From Terriglobia bacterium (GTDB lineage: Bacteria; Acidobacteriota; Terriglobia; Acidiferrales; UBA7541): a DNA stretch of 40,034 nt. Positions within the stretch are counted from its first letter, which is position 1; the number at the start of each line of letters is the position of its first letter. The notes beneath the pieces were generated by a model. It was given only the letters and a program-made list of their open reading frames with translations. It had not been told where the DNA came from and searched no databases. The stretch covers positions 1-40,034 of the forward strand of contig JAIQES010000042.1 of NCBI GenBank assembly GCA_020073705.1, written 5' to 3'. A program made the translations under genes and the position numbers. Below, one piece after another: positions 8,731-15,875 of this stretch.

Positions 8731-8759
8731 TTGACGCGATTCCTTGAGTCATGTATATT
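8731..8759 (+). promoter_or_regulatory. Sigma-70 promoter of the his operon
   Basis: TTGACG at 8731-8736 and TATATT at 8754-8759 are separated by an ideal 17-nt spacer. The expected transcription start is about 8766-8770, on or just before the ATG of the leader peptide at 8770. The leader mRNA would then have no, or almost no, 5' untranslated region. No Shine-Dalgarno is seen before that ATG. Confidence 0.75.
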
Positions 8760-8769
8760 GTGTTTTGCC

Positions 8770-8844
8770 ATGCGGCTTTCCGCGCGACATCACGGTCACC
8801 ATCATCATCACGGTGTACGACCGTGCCCGCGGAGGCTTGAGTAG
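8770..8844 (+). CDS. hisL: Histidine operon leader peptide
   Basis: A 24-codon reading frame encodes MRLSARHHGHHHHHGVRPCPRRLE and stops at TAG 8842-8844. Seven of eight consecutive codons (8788-8811) are His. It lies between a strong promoter and an intrinsic terminator, upstream of hisI. This is the architecture of a classical attenuation leader. When His-tRNA is scarce the ribosome stalls on the His codons and lets the antiterminator form. When His-tRNA is plentiful the ribosome runs to the stop codon, covers the antiterminator arm and allows termination. Initiation is probably leaderless, since the promoter places the transcript start within a few nt of the ATG. Confidence 0.88.
   Translation: MRLSARHHGHHHHHGVRPCPRRLE
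8809..8825 (+). promoter_or_regulatory. Candidate pause hairpin of the his attenuator
   Basis: cacggt (8809-8814), loop gtacg, accgtg (8820-8825): a perfect 6-bp stem that begins at the last His codon. In attenuators such a hairpin pauses polymerase until the leading ribosome catches up. A ribosome stalled on the His codons would disrupt it. Confidence 0.5.
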
Positions 8845-8870
8845 CGCATCTGAATTCGCACTCATCGGCC
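8834..8870 (+). promoter_or_regulatory. Candidate antiterminator hairpin
   Basis: ggcttgagt (8834-8842), a bulged A and gcg (8844-8846) can pair with cgc (8857-8859), actca (8860-8864) and ggcc (8867-8870), around a 10-nt loop and with a 2-nt bulge at 8865-8866. The right arm uses the first bases of the terminator stem, so the two structures exclude each other. The left arm contains the leader stop codon, so a terminating ribosome would block it. Pairing was done by eye. Confidence 0.45.
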
Positions 8871-8901
8871 CGCTGGCGCGGTAAGCGCCAGCGGGCTTTT
8901 T
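8868..8901 (+). terminator. Intrinsic terminator (his attenuator)
   Basis: gcccgctggcgc (8868-8879), loop ggtaa, gcgccagcgggc (8885-8896): a perfect 12-bp GC-rich stem followed by ttttta. It stands 40 nt before hisI and 24 nt after the leader-peptide stop. In this position it would act as a regulated terminator rather than the end of an upstream gene, because the upstream gene points the other way. Confidence 0.9.
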
Positions 8902-8905
8902 ATTT

Positions 8906-8920
8906 GGCGCGGTAAGCGCC
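8906..8920. repeat. Second copy of the terminator tip hairpin
   Basis: The 15-nt sequence ggcgcggtaagcgcc, which forms the top of the terminator (8875-8889), is repeated exactly at 8906-8920, directly after the T-run. It can fold into its own 5-bp hairpin or pair in part with the first copy. It ends 20 nt before hisI, whose ribosome-binding site (ggaggga) remains free. Confidence 0.6.
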
Positions 8921-8940
8921 GAACAGCTCTTGGAGGGACG

Positions 8941-9354
8941 ATGGATCTGGACTTCACAAAACTCGGCGGTTTACTTCCCGCCATCATTCAGGATGCGGCC
9001 TCGGGGGAAGTCCTCATGTTGGGCTTCATGAACGCCGAGGCCTACGCTGCGACGCAGGCCAGCGGCGAAGTCACCTTTTTCAGCCGCTCGCGCAACAAGC
9101 TCTGGCGCAAGGGCGAACAGAGCGGCCATGTGCTTCGCGTCCGTGAAATGCGCGTGGACTGCGATGTGGACGCGCTGTTGATTCGCGTGGAGGCGCTCGG
9201 GCCTGGCGTGTGCCACGAGGGCTACCGGTCCTGTTTCTTCCGGCGGCTTTCGGCTGGTGGCGCGGCTGAAGTTGTTGACGAGCGCACGTTCGATCCCAAC
9301 GCCGTGTACGGTTCACCGAGAACGCTCCCCGTGAACGGAAAGGATGCGCGCTGA
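8941..9354 (+). CDS. hisI: Phosphoribosyl-AMP cyclohydrolase
   Basis: This 137-residue enzyme opens the purine ring of phosphoribosyl-AMP (third step of histidine synthesis). Family motifs: [39 protein letters not shown], the metal-binding CDVDALL, and [13 protein letters not shown] with zinc cysteines. There is no HisE (phosphoribosyl-ATP pyrophosphohydrolase) domain, in contrast to the HisIE fusion of enterobacteria, and no hisE gene occurs in the window. The C-terminal tail ([15 protein letters not shown]) is normal. It is the first structural gene after the attenuator, with a strong ggaggga site. Confidence 0.95.
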
Positions 9355-10226
9355 TGAGCATACTTCGCCTGGGCATTCCCAAAGGCAGCTTGCAGGATGC
9401 GACCGTGCAGCTTTTTGCCAAGGCCGGCTGGCGCATCTCGATCAGCTCGCGCAGCTATTTTCCCGGAATCGATGACCCGGAAATCAACTGCATGATGGTC
9501 CGCGCGCAGGAAATGGCGCGCTATGTGGAAACGGGCGCTCTCGATGCTGGCATCACCGGCCGCGATTGGGTCCGCGAGACCGGCGCCGACGTTGCCGAAA
9601 TTGGAGAACTGCTTTATTCGAAACAGAGTCTCGCGCCGGTGCGCTGGGTTCTCGCTGCGCCGGACGACGGGCCGATTCAGTCGGTGAAAGACCTGGAAGG
9701 AAAGGTCATTGCCACCGAAGTGGTGAATCTCACGAAACAGTATCTGGTGCGGCATGGCGTGAATGCGCGCGTCGAATTCTCGTGGGGCGCGACCGAGGTG
9801 AAAGTGCCGCAACTCGCGGACGCCATCGTGGAAGTGACCGAGACCGGCTCATCGTTGCGGGCCAACCGATTGCGAATCATCGATACGGTCCTCGAATCCC
9901 GGACCGTATTCATCGCCAATCGTGCTGCTGTCGCTGATCCCTGGAAGAGCGAGAAAATCTCCAATCTCGTTCTCCTGCTCTCCGGAGCCATTGCCGCGTA
10001 TATTAAGGTCGGCATCATGCTTAACGTGCGCAAGGAACAACTGGCCGCGGTGCTGGGCGTTCTTCCCGCGCTCAAGAATCCGACCATATCGACGCTGAGT
10101 GATCCGAATTGGATTGCGGTGAATACGATCATTGACGAAAACGTGGTTCGTCACATCATCCCGCGCCTGAAAGCGGCCGGCGCACAGGGGATTGTCGAGT
10201 ATCCGCTGAACAAGATTGTGTTGTGA
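9354..10226 (+). CDS. hisG: ATP phosphoribosyltransferase (long form)
   Basis: The 290-residue protein joins ATP and PRPP, the first and feedback-regulated step of the pathway. The N-terminus [23 protein letters not shown], the segment [14 protein letters not shown] and [18 protein letters not shown], which binds PRPP phosphate, are visible. Its length and C-terminal domain (residues about 215-290, [30 protein letters not shown]) place it in the long form. That form carries its own histidine-sensing domain and needs no HisZ. Its ATG overlaps the hisI stop (TGATG). Confidence 0.96.
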
Positions 10227-11479
10227 TGCGCATTCTCAGACTCACCGATTCAGCCGCCGCGAAATTCTTCGCCCGGCGCGGCTCGCATGACGCGGCCGCC
10301 GAGCAAGTGGCGTCGCGCATTCTCGGCGGCGTCCGGCGCGACGGGGATGCCGCGCTATTTCGCTGGGCGCGCCGTCTCGATGGACTTCGTCTGACCCGCG
10401 ATACGATTTGGGTCAGCCGCGCAGAATTGCGGGCTGCGCGCAGCGCTGTTCCGCGCGAACTTTTGCGCGCCATCGAGCACGCCGCGAAAAATATTTGCCG
10501 GGTCGCCGAACGGCAATTACCGCGCTCGTGGACCATCACGGTTGAGCCGGGCGTGCGAGTCGGCCAGCGCGTTACTCCCCTTGGGATCATTGGATGTTAC
10601 GTTCCCGGCGGGCGCTTTTCACTGTTTTCGACCTTACTGATGACGGCGATTCCGGCGCAGGTGGCCGGGGTCAAGCGCATCGTTGTCGCTTGCCCGAAAC
10701 CGAGCCCCGCGCTGCTCGCCGCCGCGGAGATTCTCGGCGTCAAGGAAATTGCCCGGATCGGCGGCGCGCAAGCGATCGGCGCGTTTGCATACGGCACGCA
10801 ATCCATTCCGCGCGTGGACAAGATTTGCGGTCCCGGCAATCGTTACGTGACGGCAGCCAAGCGCATCGTTTCAAACGACTGCGCGATCGATATGCCCGCA
10901 GGCCCAACCGAGGTGCTGATCCTTGCCTCTGGCGGGGACCCGCGTTTTATTGCTGCGGATTTGCTCGCGCAGGCTGAGCATGATCCGGACGCCGTCGCGC
11001 TTCTGGTCACGCCGTCGGCGCGGTTGGCGCGCGACGTGGATGCGGAAGTCAGCCGTCAGCTTCGCGATTTGCTGAAGAGCAATCCGGCCTGGCAGTCGCT
11101 TCGGAGTGCGAGCGCCATCTTCGTGGCGCCTTCGATGGATGCCGCCGTGCGTTTCGCCAATCGCGTGGCCCCGGAACATTTGAGTATCCCGTTTGCGGAG
11201 CGAGCCCTTGTGGAGAAGCTATCCGCGGCCGGCAGCGTGTTTCTCGGGCCCTGGAGCGCGCAGCCCATTGGTGACTACGCCAGCGGGACCAACCATGTGC
11301 TGCCGACGTCCGGCTGGGCGCATGCGCGCGGCGGATTGAGCGTTTCCGACTTTGTGAAGTGTTCCAGCACGCAAGAAATATCTCGCGCAGGCCTCAAGCG
11401 TCTCGCGCCCATCGTATCCGCCATGGCGCGGGCCGAGGGCCTCGAAGCACACGCCCGCGCCGTCGAGGTGCGCCGGTGA
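10226..11479 (+). CDS. hisD: Histidinol dehydrogenase
   Basis: The 417-residue enzyme oxidises histidinol to histidine in two NAD-dependent steps. PLGIIGCYVPGGR, VDKICGPGNRYVTAAKRIV, the zinc ligands Gln and His in LLAQAEHDPDAVALL, and the C-terminal Asp in IGDYASGTNHVLPTSGWA are all conserved. The chosen ATG at 10226 overlaps the hisG stop by one base (TGATG). A GTG one codon earlier (10223) is possible and would add a single residue. The stop overlaps the hisC GTG. Confidence 0.96.
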   Translation: MRILRLTDSAAAKFFARRGSHDAAAEQVASRILGGVRRDGDAALFRWARRLDGLRLTRDTIWVSRAELRAARSAVPRELLRAIEHAAKNICRVAERQLPRSWTITVEPGVRVGQRVTPLGIIGCYVPGGRFSLFSTLLMTAIPAQVAGVKRIVVACPKPSPALLAAAEILGVKEIARIGGAQAIGAFAYGTQSIPRVDKICGPGNRYVTAAKRIVSNDCAIDMPAGPTEVLILASGGDPRFIAADLLAQAEHDPDAVALLVTPSARLARDVDAEVSRQLRDLLKSNPAWQSLRSASAIFVAPSMDAAVRFANRVAPEHLSIPFAERALVEKLSAAGSVFLGPWSAQPIGDYASGTNHVLPTSGWAHARGGLSVSDFVKCSSTQEISRAGLKRLAPIVSAMARAEGLEAHARAVEVRR

Positions 11480-12540
11480 AAAACACGAAGATACCGAACA
11501 TTCCGGTTCGTCGCGCGGTGCTCGGCTTGGCTCCGTATGGCGCCCCCGACGAGGGCCGCGCTGGAAAGCTTCGCCTGGATTTCAACGAGAATACGGTCGG
11601 GTGTTCGCCCGCCGTGCTGCGCGCACTCTCTCGCATGACGGGCGAACAGATGGCGATGTATCCCGAATATCAGGCCACGACGCGGCGCCTGGCTCGATTT
11701 TTCCGTGTCCGGCCGGATGAAATACTTCTGACGAATGGCATTGACGATGCCTTGCACCTGATCTCGGACACTTTTATCGAGCGCGGCGATGCGGTTCTGC
11801 TCGCCGAACCCACGTTCGACATGTATCGTTTCTTTGCCGAACTGGCGGGCGCGCGCGTCATCGCGCTGCGCTATGACGAGGAGATGCGGTTTCCGATTGC
11901 AGGCGTGTTGCGCGAGCTTCGCCGTTCCCCGCGCGTGCTGTATATCGCGAATCCGAGCAATCCCACCGGCACTTTGGTCCAGCCGGCTGCGTTACGCCGT
12001 ATCTTGCGCGCGGCGTCCCGGACATTGGTGTTTGTGGACGAGGCTTATTTCGATTTTTCAGGTCTAACTGTGCTTTCGTGGATTCGCCGCTATCCCAATC
12101 TCATGGTATCGCGGACGTTTTCAAAATCTGCTGGTTTAGCCGCGCTGCGCCTTGGATGCCTGTTCGCCCGCCCGGAGATTCTTTCGGTGATGCGCCGCGC
12201 GAGCACGCCTTATCCGGTGAATACGGCCGCGTTGGTGGCTGCGGAAGCGTCGATCCGGGACACCCGATTTGTCCGGAAATATGCCCGTGAAGTTCTGCGG
12301 AGCCGTGTGCTTCTTGAAAAGGGGCTCACGCGTTTGGGCGCCCGGATTTATCCAAGCGCCGCAAATTTCGTTCTTGCGGACTTTGGTCCCGGGGCGCATC
12401 GCATGGTTCGCGCTCTCGAACGGAAGGGCATTCTGGTGCGCGAGCGGAAGGATTTTCCACGAGAAGGCTTCGTACGCATCAGCGCCGGTACCCGCGCCGA
12501 CACGCGCCGTCTGCTCCGGGCGATCCAGGAGACCCTGTGA
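11476..12540 (+). CDS. hisC: Histidinol-phosphate aminotransferase
   Basis: A 354-residue fold-type I PLP enzyme transferring an amino group from glutamate to imidazole-acetol phosphate. LRLDFNENTVGCSP, TNGIDDALHLI, IANPSNPTGTLV, FVDEAYFDF and the Schiff-base K217 in SRTFSKSAGLAALRLG are visible, and the C-terminal arginine region is FVRISAGTRADTRRLL. The start is GTG 11476 in a GTGA overlap with the hisD stop, with gaggtg 5 nt upstream. Longer in-frame starts exist inside hisD, but the family N-terminus begins here. The closest relatives could include other class I/II aminotransferases, but the operon position settles the role. Confidence 0.94.
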   Translation: MKNTKIPNIPVRRAVLGLAPYGAPDEGRAGKLRLDFNENTVGCSPAVLRALSRMTGEQMAMYPEYQATTRRLARFFRVRPDEILLTNGIDDALHLISDTFIERGDAVLLAEPTFDMYRFFAELAGARVIALRYDEEMRFPIAGVLRELRRSPRVLYIANPSNPTGTLVQPAALRRILRAASRTLVFVDEAYFDFSGLTVLSWIRRYPNLMVSRTFSKSAGLAALRLGCLFARPEILSVMRRASTPYPVNTAALVAAEASIRDTRFVRKYAREVLRSRVLLEKGLTRLGARIYPSAANFVLADFGPGAHRMVRALERKGILVRERKDFPREGFVRISAGTRADTRRLLRAIQETL

Positions 12541-13223
12541 AGCTCACACCTAAGCTCGTGATTTTTGACGTCGATGGCGTCCTTGTGGACGTGCGCGGAT
12601 CGTTCCACCGGTCCATCGTCGATACGATTCACTTTTTCACGGGCCGGCGTGTCACGTATGCCGAAATCCATCAGTGGAAAAACCGCACCGGATACAACGA
12701 CGACTGGCGACTCACGACCGATTGGATCGCCTCGTTGCGCGTCGAGGTTCCTTATGCCGAGGTGAAGAGCCGCTTTGAGAAGTTCTATTGGGGTACGAAG
12801 GGGCACCCCGGCAACGTTTTGCGCGAACGGTGGCTCGTGACCCATAAGCGCCTGGAGCGTTGGTCGCGGCGTGCCGATCTCGCGCTGTTCACGGGCCGCA
12901 CGCGCAAGGAACTGCACCACACGCTGGACGGCAGAGAAGCGCATCATCTTTTCCAGCGCGCGGTCACCATGGATGATGTGTCGAAGGGAAAGCCAGACCC
13001 CGAGGGGCTACGTTTGCTACTCGATGGCCGATCGCCCAAGCAGGCCGTCTTCCTTGGCGACAGCCTTGATGATGCCCTTGCGGCCAAGCGCGCGAGCGTG
13101 CCTTTTTTTGGGATTCTCCCGTATGGAAGCGAGGCACACCGCGTCCGCGCGGCTCGCCTGCACGAATTGGGCGCTCTGGCGGTATTGCACAATGTGACGG
13201 AACTGGAGAAATTCTGGGAATGA
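12537..13223 (+). CDS. HAD phosphatase, candidate histidinol-phosphatase
   Basis: A 228-residue haloacid-dehalogenase superfamily protein (subfamily IA-like, with a helical cap at residues about 17-105). All four catalytic motifs are intact: [10 protein letters not shown] (D11, D13), [13 protein letters not shown] the lysine in [22 protein letters not shown]. It is thus expected to be an active Mg-dependent phosphohydrolase. It sits between hisC and hisB with 4-nt overlaps on both sides (GTGA and ATGA). HisB here lacks the enterobacterial N-terminal phosphatase domain and no PHP-type or IMPase-type histidinol-phosphatase is present. The inference is that this gene supplies the histidinol-phosphate phosphatase step. 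A general or housecleaning phosphatase is the alternative. Confidence 0.85.
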
Positions 13224-13807
13224 GAAAAGCAAATCTGCGTCGCACCACCACGGAAACCGATATCCGCGTGCGCCTGAACCTCGACGGGCGTGGCCGCGCG
13301 AAGATCTCCACCGGGATTCCGTTTCTCGATCACATGCTGACGCTCGTGGCGCGCCACGGCGCGATGGATCTGGCGCTTACCGTGCGCGGAGACCTCGAAG
13401 TGGACCAGCACCACACAGTGGAAGACACGGGCATCGTTCTTGGCGAGGCGGTCCGGAAGGCGCTGGGCTCCAAACGCGGCATTCTGCGCGCAGGATACTT
13501 CCTGATGCCCATGGACGAGACGCTTGCGGCTGCCGCCATCGATTTCAGCGGCCGGCCACATCTAGTCTGCAAATGGAAATTCTCCGCGAAGCATGTTGGT
13601 GGCCTGCAAACGGAATTGCTGGAGGACTTCTTCGGCGGCTTCGCGCAGGCAGCGGGCGCCAACGTTCATCTACGGCTGCTCTATGGCCGTTCGTCGCATC
13701 ACCAGGTGGAAGCAATTTTCAAGGCCTTCGCGCGCGCGCTGCGGTTTGCAGCCACGCGCGATCCGCAGTTGAAGCGCATGCTGCCCAGCACAAAAGGACT
13801 GCTGTGA
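13220..13807 (+). CDS. hisB: Imidazoleglycerol-phosphate dehydratase (monofunctional)
   Basis: The 195-residue enzyme dehydrates imidazoleglycerol phosphate to imidazole-acetol phosphate. The duplicated manganese-binding histidine motifs are clear: [20 protein letters not shown], and in the second half [17 protein letters not shown] and [17 protein letters not shown]. It has only the dehydratase domain; there is no fused HAD phosphatase, consistent with a separate phosphatase gene just upstream. The ATG overlaps the preceding stop (ATGA). Confidence 0.97.
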
Positions 13808-14418
13808 ACATCGCACTGGTTGAATACGGCGCCGGGAACCTCCCTTCGGTCGAGCGCGCGCTCACACGGCTCGGGGTGGAATCCCGCCGTGCGTCCACGC
13901 CGGAAGCTCTGGCATCAAGCGACGTTTTGATCCTCCCGGGCGTCGGCCATTTCGGCGCGCTGATGCATTCGCTTACCGAGCGCTCGCTGGTGAATCCGTT
14001 GCGCAACGCCGTCGCGCGCGGCGTCCCGCTGCTCGGCATCTGTCTGGGATTGCAGGCAATGTTCGCAACGAGCGATGAGGCGCCCGGCGACGCGGGGTTA
14101 AGTCTTTTCCCGCAAAATGTTTCCGCGCTGCCGCCGACCGGCCGCCTGCCGCACATGGGATGGAATCAGCTCCGCCGCGTGCGTCCCAGCACAATGCTTG
14201 AGGGTGTTCCGGACGACGCCTACTTTTATTTTGCGCACTCCTATGCCGCACTCGACGCCGGAGAGGCGGGTGTCGCGCTCTGCGACTACAGCGCTTCGTT
14301 CGTCGCCGTGCTCGAGCAGGGCAACGTCTTTGCGACGCAATTTCATCCGGAAAAGTCGGGTCCCGTCGGCGCGCGGGTGCTTTCGAACTTCGTGCGGCGC
14401 GCAGGCGGAAAGCAATGA
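13804..14418 (+). CDS. hisH: Imidazole glycerol phosphate synthase, glutaminase subunit
   Basis: A 204-residue class I glutamine amidotransferase that releases ammonia for HisF. The catalytic triad is C80 in [11 protein letters not shown] plus His and Glu in [19 protein letters not shown] is the oxyanion region, and LPHMGWNQL contacts HisF. The start is GTG 13804, in a GTGA overlap with the hisB stop; upstream in-frame ATGs lie inside hisB and would add a foreign N-terminus. The stop overlaps the hisF ATG, as expected for subunits made in equal amounts. Confidence 0.96.
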
Positions 14419-15179
14419 GCCTCGCACACCGCATCATTCCTTGCCTCGATACCGATGGGGAGCGCGTCGTCAAGGGCGTGCAATTCGTCAATTTGCGAGA
14501 CGCCGGGGATCCCGCCGCGCTCGCGGCGCGTTACAACGTCGAAGGCGCCGACGAACTCGTCGTTCTCGACATCGCCGCCTCGCGAGACCACCGCCCCACC
14601 TTTCTCGAAACGATTCGCCGCGTCGCGGCCGAACTGGCGATTCCGCTCACGGCCGGAGGCGGCGTCGCCACGGTCGATGAGGGCCGCGCGATCCTCCGCG
14701 CAGGCGCCGACAAGCTCACCGTGAACACGGCCGCGATCCGGAATCCCGAATTGCTCACGGTACTGGCGGCGGAGTTTGGCTCGCAGGCCGTTGTTCTCGC
14801 GATTGACGCCAAGCGTGCCGGCGATCACTGGGAAGCGTTCGTCCGGGGCGGCAGTGTGGCCACCGGTCTGGACGCGGTCGCCTGGGCGCACCAGGGAGTG
14901 GAACGCGGCGCAGGCGAGATCCTGATCACATCCATGGACCGGGACGGCACGCGCTCGGGATTCGATTGCGCACTCACGGCGGCGATTTCACGCGCGGTCC
15001 GTGTGCCGGTCATTGCCTCGGGAGGCGCCGATACGCCAGAAACGTTTCTGGAAGTGTTCCGCGAAGGCCGGGCTGATGCGGCGCTGGCTGCGTCGATTTT
15101 TCACGACCGCATCCAGGGGCTTGGCGAACTCAAGCGATATCTTGGAGAACGAGGAGTTTCGGTTCGCCAGACCGGCTGA
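14415..15179 (+). CDS. hisF: Imidazole glycerol phosphate synthase, cyclase subunit
   Basis: A 254-residue TIM barrel that uses ammonia from HisH to form imidazoleglycerol phosphate and [21 protein letters not shown] holds the first catalytic Asp. [34 protein letters not shown] with the second catalytic Asp, [13 protein letters not shown] and [13 protein letters not shown] form the two phosphate sites. Length is normal. It overlaps hisH by 4 nt and is followed by hisA after 9 nt. Confidence 0.97.
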
Positions 15180-15188
15180 CCATTCCAC

Positions 15189-15875
15189 ATGTTGATTCCT
15201 TGTATTGATCTGCAATCCGGGCGCGCGGTCCAGCTTGTGCATGGACGCAAACGGCGGCTGGCCGTGGATGATGTCCTTGGTTTGCTTGACCGCTTCGGTG
15301 ACTATCGCTTGATTCATGTAATTGATCTCGACGCTGCGATGCGGAAGGGAAGCAACGCGAGGCTCGTGCGCCAGCTCTGTAAAACGGCGGCGAGGCGCAA
15401 AATGCGCGTCCGCGTGGGTGGCGGAATCCGCACCGTGGCTCGCGCGGCGGCGATTGCGGGCTGGGGCGCGGAAAAAATCATTGTGGGCAGCGCTGCGTTT
15501 CGCAACGGCCGCGTGAACCGCACTTTTCTTGAGCGCCTGGTGGCCCGAATCGGCCGACGGCGGATTATCGTCGCTCTCGACACCGAAGGCGGGCGCATCC
15601 TCGTGCGCGGCTGGCGAGAAAAGCTGCGCCTGCGCCCGGAACAGGTGATTCCCGAACTCGAAAAGTATGCCTCGGAATTTCTCTGCACCTACGTGGATGC
15701 TGAAGGCACGATGCGCGGCACAAATCTCGACTGGTTCCGCGCCCTGCGCCGCGCCACGCGCCGCCCCATTACTGCCGCGGGCGGCATTCGCAGCCGGAGC
15801 GAAGTCCGCGCACTCGCGCGGATCGATATGAACGCCGCCGTCGGCATGGCGCTCTATACCGGCGAGATTTCCTGA
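15189..15875 (+). CDS. hisA: Phosphoribosylformimino-5-aminoimidazole carboxamide ribotide isomerase
   Basis: A 228-residue TIM barrel homologous to HisF that opens the ribose of ProFAR by an Amadori rearrangement. The catalytic Asp near the N-terminus is in LIPCIDLQSGRAVQLV; the second is in IVALDTEGGRILVRGW. Phosphate sites are RVGGGIRTV and TAAGGIRSRSE. It is about 15 residues shorter than typical HisA, and Arg-rich stretches replace some usual acidic loops, but all core motifs are present. It is the last gene of the operon. No clear terminator follows in 15876-15944. Confidence 0.93.
   Translation: MLIPCIDLQSGRAVQLVHGRKRRLAVDDVLGLLDRFGDYRLIHVIDLDAAMRKGSNARLVRQLCKTAARRKMRVRVGGGIRTVARAAAIAGWGAEKIIVGSAAFRNGRVNRTFLERLVARIGRRRIIVALDTEGGRILVRGWREKLRLRPEQVIPELEKYASEFLCTYVDAEGTMRGTNLDWFRALRRATRRPITAAGGIRSRSEVRALARIDMNAAVGMALYTGEIS

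Follow-up and report, generated by a model that had tools for sequence, protein, structure and literature searches.

The window analysed here, a stretch of 40,034 nucleotides from a Terriglobia genome, contains a complete his operon on the forward strand, which opens with hisI (8941–9354; over the cut-off of NCBIfam NF000768) and continues with hisG, hisD, hisC, a HAD hydrolase, hisB, hisH, hisF and hisA (9354–15875). The HAD-family hydrolase, found between hisC and hisB (12537–13223), is a candidate for the otherwise missing histidinol-phosphatase. The gene upstream of the leader is YetF/DUF421-like and lies on the other strand, from which it follows that the promoter region is that of the his operon. 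The host, which an initial annotation made from the letters alone had guessed to be an acidobacterium, is indeed one (Terriglobia, Candidatus Acidiferrales, near Candidatus Acidiferrum). Directly 5′ of hisI, positions 8731–8940 hold in succession a sigma-70 promoter, a short ORF, a GC-rich hairpin and a T tract; the initial annotation had named here the parts of a ribosome-mediated his attenuator, and all of them are present where it had placed them.

The promoter is formed by a −35 box TTGACG (8731–8736) and, at 17 nt from it, a −10 box TATATT (8754–8759); together they match 10 of the 12 consensus positions, an event expected 0.1 times in shuffled sequences. The leader ORF that follows (8770–8844, forward strand; MRLSARHHGHHHHHGVRPCPRRLE and a stop codon at 8842–8844) has no Shine-Dalgarno, in contrast to hisI, which is preceded by GGAGG (8932–8936). 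It comprises 24 codons, seven of them for His, the end product of the pathway, and the regulatory codons are those of the run HHGHHHHH (8788–8811), already recognized in the initial annotation. A His run is kept in the relatives; the peptide outside it is little conserved.

Six strands of the leader RNA, all on the forward strand, account for the alternative structures. Strand A (CCGCG at 8780–8784 and CACGGTC at 8791–8797) pairs with strand B (GACCGTGCCCGCGG, 8819–8832) in the predicted pause or protector hairpin, a fold that excludes the antiterminator, in which strand B pairs instead with strand E (8867–8881). The core of this antiterminator joins CCGTGCCCGCGG (8821–8832) to CCGCTGGCGCGG (8870–8881) with a single C·U mismatch, and inside it is nested a further hairpin, formed by strand C (TGAGTAGCG, 8838–8846) and strand D (CGCACTCA, 8857–8864); among more distant relatives, B:E helices often run without interruption, as in GTGTCAGCGG with CCGCTGACGC. 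Strand E also provides, with its positions 8867–8879, the 5′ arm of the terminator, whose 3′ arm is strand F (8885–8897), and the resulting stem of 13 pairs (8867–8897), followed by the T tract TTTTTATTT (8897–8905), lies between the leader ORF and hisI. The initial annotation was right about the pause hairpin, the terminator and an antiterminator arm that shares bases with the terminator stem; the leader stop codon, which it had placed within the antiterminator arm, is found instead in the nested C:D hairpin, the core 5′ arm lying just upstream of it. Just downstream of the terminator, GGCGCGGTAAGCGCC (8906–8920) is a second copy of the apical half of its hairpin (8875–8889), one that is absent in the close relatives examined.

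At the level of folding energy, the region is more stable than its shuffled versions (z = −4.6; none of 200 shuffles as good). When the nascent RNA is folded with the positions under a stalled ribosome masked, a check that had been suggested at the outset, it adopts B:E with C:D nested inside; for the leader of the window the whole fold reaches −32.4 kcal/mol, as against −31.3 kcal/mol for the terminator region, and among the leaders displayed B:E amounts to about −24 to −34 kcal/mol, comparable to the terminator. An equilibrium calculation gives strand E a paired fraction of 0.78 with the ribosome stalled at the His codons and 0.48 with the ribosome at the stop codon; in the ribosome-free state, which does not discriminate, the value is 0.69, and the prediction for that state therefore depends on the order of folding during transcription.

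The presence of this leader is not limited to the window. At 29 of 30 hisI loci of this genome and its relatives, the sole exception being L028, hisI is preceded by a short ORF in which a stretch of eight codons contains four or more for His. Of the 43 named loci, 42 with Acidobacteriota titles plus L043, 38 have a His-rich ORF, including loci of Acidobacteria, Bryobacteraceae, Solibacteraceae and Acidiferrales. The locus L043 is titled Gemmatimonadetes and carries a hisI of acidobacterial type (69% identical) together with a His leader; it is likely a misassigned metagenome-assembled genome or a transfer. The same scan found no His leader at the hisI loci kept from Planctomycetota, Lentisphaerota, spirochaete and similar records. 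A first covariance model, built from 21 leaders, matches 124 of 299 Terriglobia genomes, and a His-rich ORF is present in all 40 of the distant Terriglobia matches examined; in a few it has no more than three or four His. By a broader model, 44 of the 46 genomes in family f11 have the leader, and a further 34 genomes match outside the class, in other families of Acidobacteriota. Among these 34, 30 possess a His leader; the gene that follows it is in most cases hisI or hisG, and in one case, from another acidobacterial family (L286, about 200–342 of the reverse complement), it is hisZ/hisS-like. These genome counts from covariance models are lower bounds, because stricter filters were applied. 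Most relatives have, as a sequence signature, a hairpin plus a T-rich tail, and in a small number of leaders the His run or the terminator is weak. Loss of the His run or of the hairpins in close relatives had been named as what would speak against the attenuator; both are conserved.

Whether each strand fits its own partner better than the partners of other leaders was measured in a strand-swap test, as duplex energy in 57 leaders less than 80% alike. Own pairs were more stable than swapped pairs for A:B (−23.7 vs. −19.1, z −10.3), for B:E (−20.8 vs. −18.1, z −7.5) and for E:F (−24.1 vs. −19.8, z −11.2), none of 20,000 permutations being as good for any of the three helices, while the wrong pairings, between strands of the same relatedness, gave no signal (A:E z +1.8, B:F −1.2, A:F −0.8). 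The 30 leaders from outside the class behave in the same manner (A:B z −4.7, B:E −4.9, E:F −10.5; wrong pairings A:E +1.3, B:F −0.4, A:F −1.5). The co-evolution tests postdate the proposal of the structure; what comes nearest to an independent replication is the set from outside the class, although the model that retrieved it derives from the first leaders. In the column counts, cells with changes on both sides numbered 35 for B:E (16 shuffled; 8–19 slid) and 31 for E:F (13 shuffled; 1–4 slid). Co-evolution of the kind that the initial annotation had asked for is found in each of the three helices.

Taken together, the anatomy, the conservation and the co-evolution of the helices make the initial reading the best one: the element is very probably a conserved ribosome-mediated attenuator of his transcription that senses charged His-tRNA. 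From this comparative evidence we infer the following sequence of events. Transcription would start a few nucleotides 5′ of the leader ATG, and a ribosome would initiate at or near the 5′ end of the RNA without a Shine-Dalgarno. Where His-tRNA is scarce, the ribosome would stall in the His run (8788–8811) and cover strand A, so that strand B, now free, would pair with E around the nested C:D hairpin while F is still to be transcribed; the terminator would then be blocked and the his operon transcribed. Where His-tRNA is ample, the ribosome would arrive at the stop codon and cover B and C, so that E:F could form and the RNA polymerase would stop at the T tract. In the absence of translation, strand B would remain paired with A, and the terminator would be expected to form. 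The overlap of B:E with E:F, the co-evolution of both helices and the masked folding all agree with the antiterminator step of this scheme, as the exclusion of the antiterminator by a co-evolving A:B helix does with its protector step.

The way in which the ribosome would enter this RNA is a feature that the initial annotation had missed. The ATG is found 10 nt past the −10 box, and transcription usually starts 6–7 nt from such a box, which would put the RNA start at about 8766 and leave a 5′ UTR of roughly 2–5 nt. In nearly all relatives the spacing from the −10 box to the ATG is 8–11 nt, with TTGAC at 17–18 nt. Among 120 leaders, defined by their peptide alone and with the most upstream ATG taken as the start, TTGAC is found upstream in 88 and a TANNNT ending 7–12 nt before the ATG in 94, against 11 in shuffles (maximum 22); a Shine-Dalgarno core precedes only 7 of the 120 leader starts vs. 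37 of 46 hisI starts. On the basis of promoter spacing and the absent Shine-Dalgarno, the leader ORF is probably near-leaderless. That the RNA begins further upstream, with an incidental −10-like box and an otherwise classical attenuation, seems to us unlikely: it could draw on the fact that the start sites are predicted and that 26 of the 120 leaders have no TANNNT in the expected window, a deficit due in part to the use of the most upstream ATG, but it does not account for the spacing shared by nearly all relatives nor for the 113 leaders without a Shine-Dalgarno core, and leaderless genes are themselves predicted at about 13% in acidobacteria (PMC3160421).

Alternative explanations for the element as a whole fare worse. 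Runs such as HHGHHHHH resemble metal-binding tails, and the short ORF might in principle encode a functional His-rich, metal-binding mini-protein followed by an ordinary terminator; however, a peptide little conserved outside its His run, overlapped by helices A:B and B:E that co-evolve, preceding his genes throughout and with a poly-Cys version before a sulfite/nitrite reductase gene of the same genome, makes this scarcely credible. Control by the leader peptide through the translation of hisI, or through Rho, is known in variants elsewhere (PMC9413887, PMC1262725), but it is very improbable here, where the stem of 13 pairs ends in a T tract, most relatives show a hairpin with a T-rich tail, and a separate Shine-Dalgarno for hisI lies past the terminator. 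Finally, the element shares its function and architecture with the enterobacterial his leader, as would be expected had it been acquired from Proteobacteria by transfer and not been old in Acidobacteriota. This origin is also highly unlikely, since the element is widespread over the phylum, since its operon begins with hisI, unlike the enterobacterial order hisGDCBHAFI, and since the His leader model of Rfam (RF00514), which recognizes an E. coli control, finds no match in the window or in the whole genome. A scan of the window with Rfam, at gathering and at permissive thresholds, gave no meaningful family; weak sRNA matches that overlap the terminator were rejected as below the cut-off, and no T-box riboswitch model matched at the gathering threshold or among the weak matches.

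The preferred reading, a ribosome-mediated attenuator, involves a mechanism that is itself classical, known from the his and trp attenuators; what appears to be new is a lineage-wide acidobacterial variant. With the enterobacterial his attenuator (RF00514) it shares the leader peptide with a His run, the pause hairpin, the switch between antiterminator and terminator, and the control of a his operon; it differs in a leader ORF that is predicted to be near-leaderless, in the hisI-first operon, and in an antiterminator that consists of a single B:E helix enclosing another hairpin. Set against the enterobacterial his pairing scheme, its own appears closer to the trp type (1:2 / 2:3 / 3:4) with an added nested hairpin: as in that type, four strands yield three mutually exclusive helices, whereas the amino acid sensed is His and the C:D hairpin is additional. 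The acidobacterial attenuator is not the first outside the Proteobacteria. Predictions exist for Firmicutes (PMC9413887, PMC2965389), whose His leaders share the His-rich peptide and the transcriptional terminator but occur in narrow lineages as opposed to phylum-wide, and also for Actinobacteria, where the leader peptides of the attenuators concern other amino acids (PMC1262725). Nor are other phyla without regulatory leader ORFs that begin at the 5′ end of their RNA or close to it: the trpL RNA of S. meliloti, which concerns a different amino acid, starts at its ATG (PMC7298713), and the mycobacterial poly-Cys ORFs are, in the work of Canestrari (2020) as cited in PMC13236596, leaderless attenuator ORFs. 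In the literature searched, from which the broad 2010 attenuator survey of Lopatovskaya et al. (as cited in PMC4833913) stood apart, no earlier description in Acidobacteria was found; that survey may already hold a prediction of the acidobacterial element.

A related leader is seen for a second amino acid. Following matches of the His models that lie away from his genes, a Cys-rich leader was recognized in a relative (L298), where it precedes a sulfite/nitrite reductase gene, and the genome of the window itself contains a poly-Cys leader, MSHLSEFGACICCCCTNAPMCGENV with its stop codon, near a TATCAT box and followed by a terminator, before a NIR/SIR gene (L306:1179–1350, G000:C24), with related leaders at 12 other loci. 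In 13 such Cys leaders the strand-swap test gave z −3.6 for B:E and −5.1 for E:F, and no signal for A:B (−0.4). They resemble the mycobacterial poly-Cys ORFs, as far as these are described in the citing paper, although the acidobacterial leaders have an intrinsic terminator, a feature apparently missing from the mycobacterial cys leaders (PMC1262725). A scan of 26 genomes for Leu- and Trp-rich leaders before leuA and trpE gave none that was conserved, so that attenuators of this type do not serve all amino acids. Other short ORFs were seen in passing: an Ile-rich one, MMHPDRTAVTRIAIINITGGTPGG and a stop codon, followed by a terminator before a citramalate-synthase-like gene (L287:200–321), a possible Ile attenuator; Met/Thr/Ile-containing ones with strong terminators before aspartokinase-like and aspartate-semialdehyde-dehydrogenase-like genes (L295 and L296, about 200–340), which are possible attenuators; and MSLSVSNMAMCCCAMAMRVFTPRQKGS with its stop codon, containing Met and Cys codons, with a terminator after it, upstream of a threonine-synthase-like gene (L299, reverse strand, about 160–300 of the reverse complement). 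We consider the chances evenly balanced that near-leaderless attenuators form a phylum-wide class in Acidobacteriota, serving His and Cys and perhaps also Ile or Met/Thr, in which ribosomes load directly at the 5′ end of the nascent RNA.

Acidobacteriota are an abundant phylum of the soil whose regulation of amino acid synthesis is little described, and an early survey contained almost no predicted attenuators with an associated function for them (PMC2965389). The element would offer a testable sensor of His, conserved in many genera and part of a sizeable set of likely His leaders overlooked by the Rfam model, as well as a case in which the strands of the pause, antiterminator and terminator structures co-evolve visibly. 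It also allows one to ask whether leaderless initiation supports a tight coupling of transcription and translation; if the wider class exists, coupling to the RNA polymerase would begin, in the acidobacterial attenuators, without recruitment by a Shine-Dalgarno.
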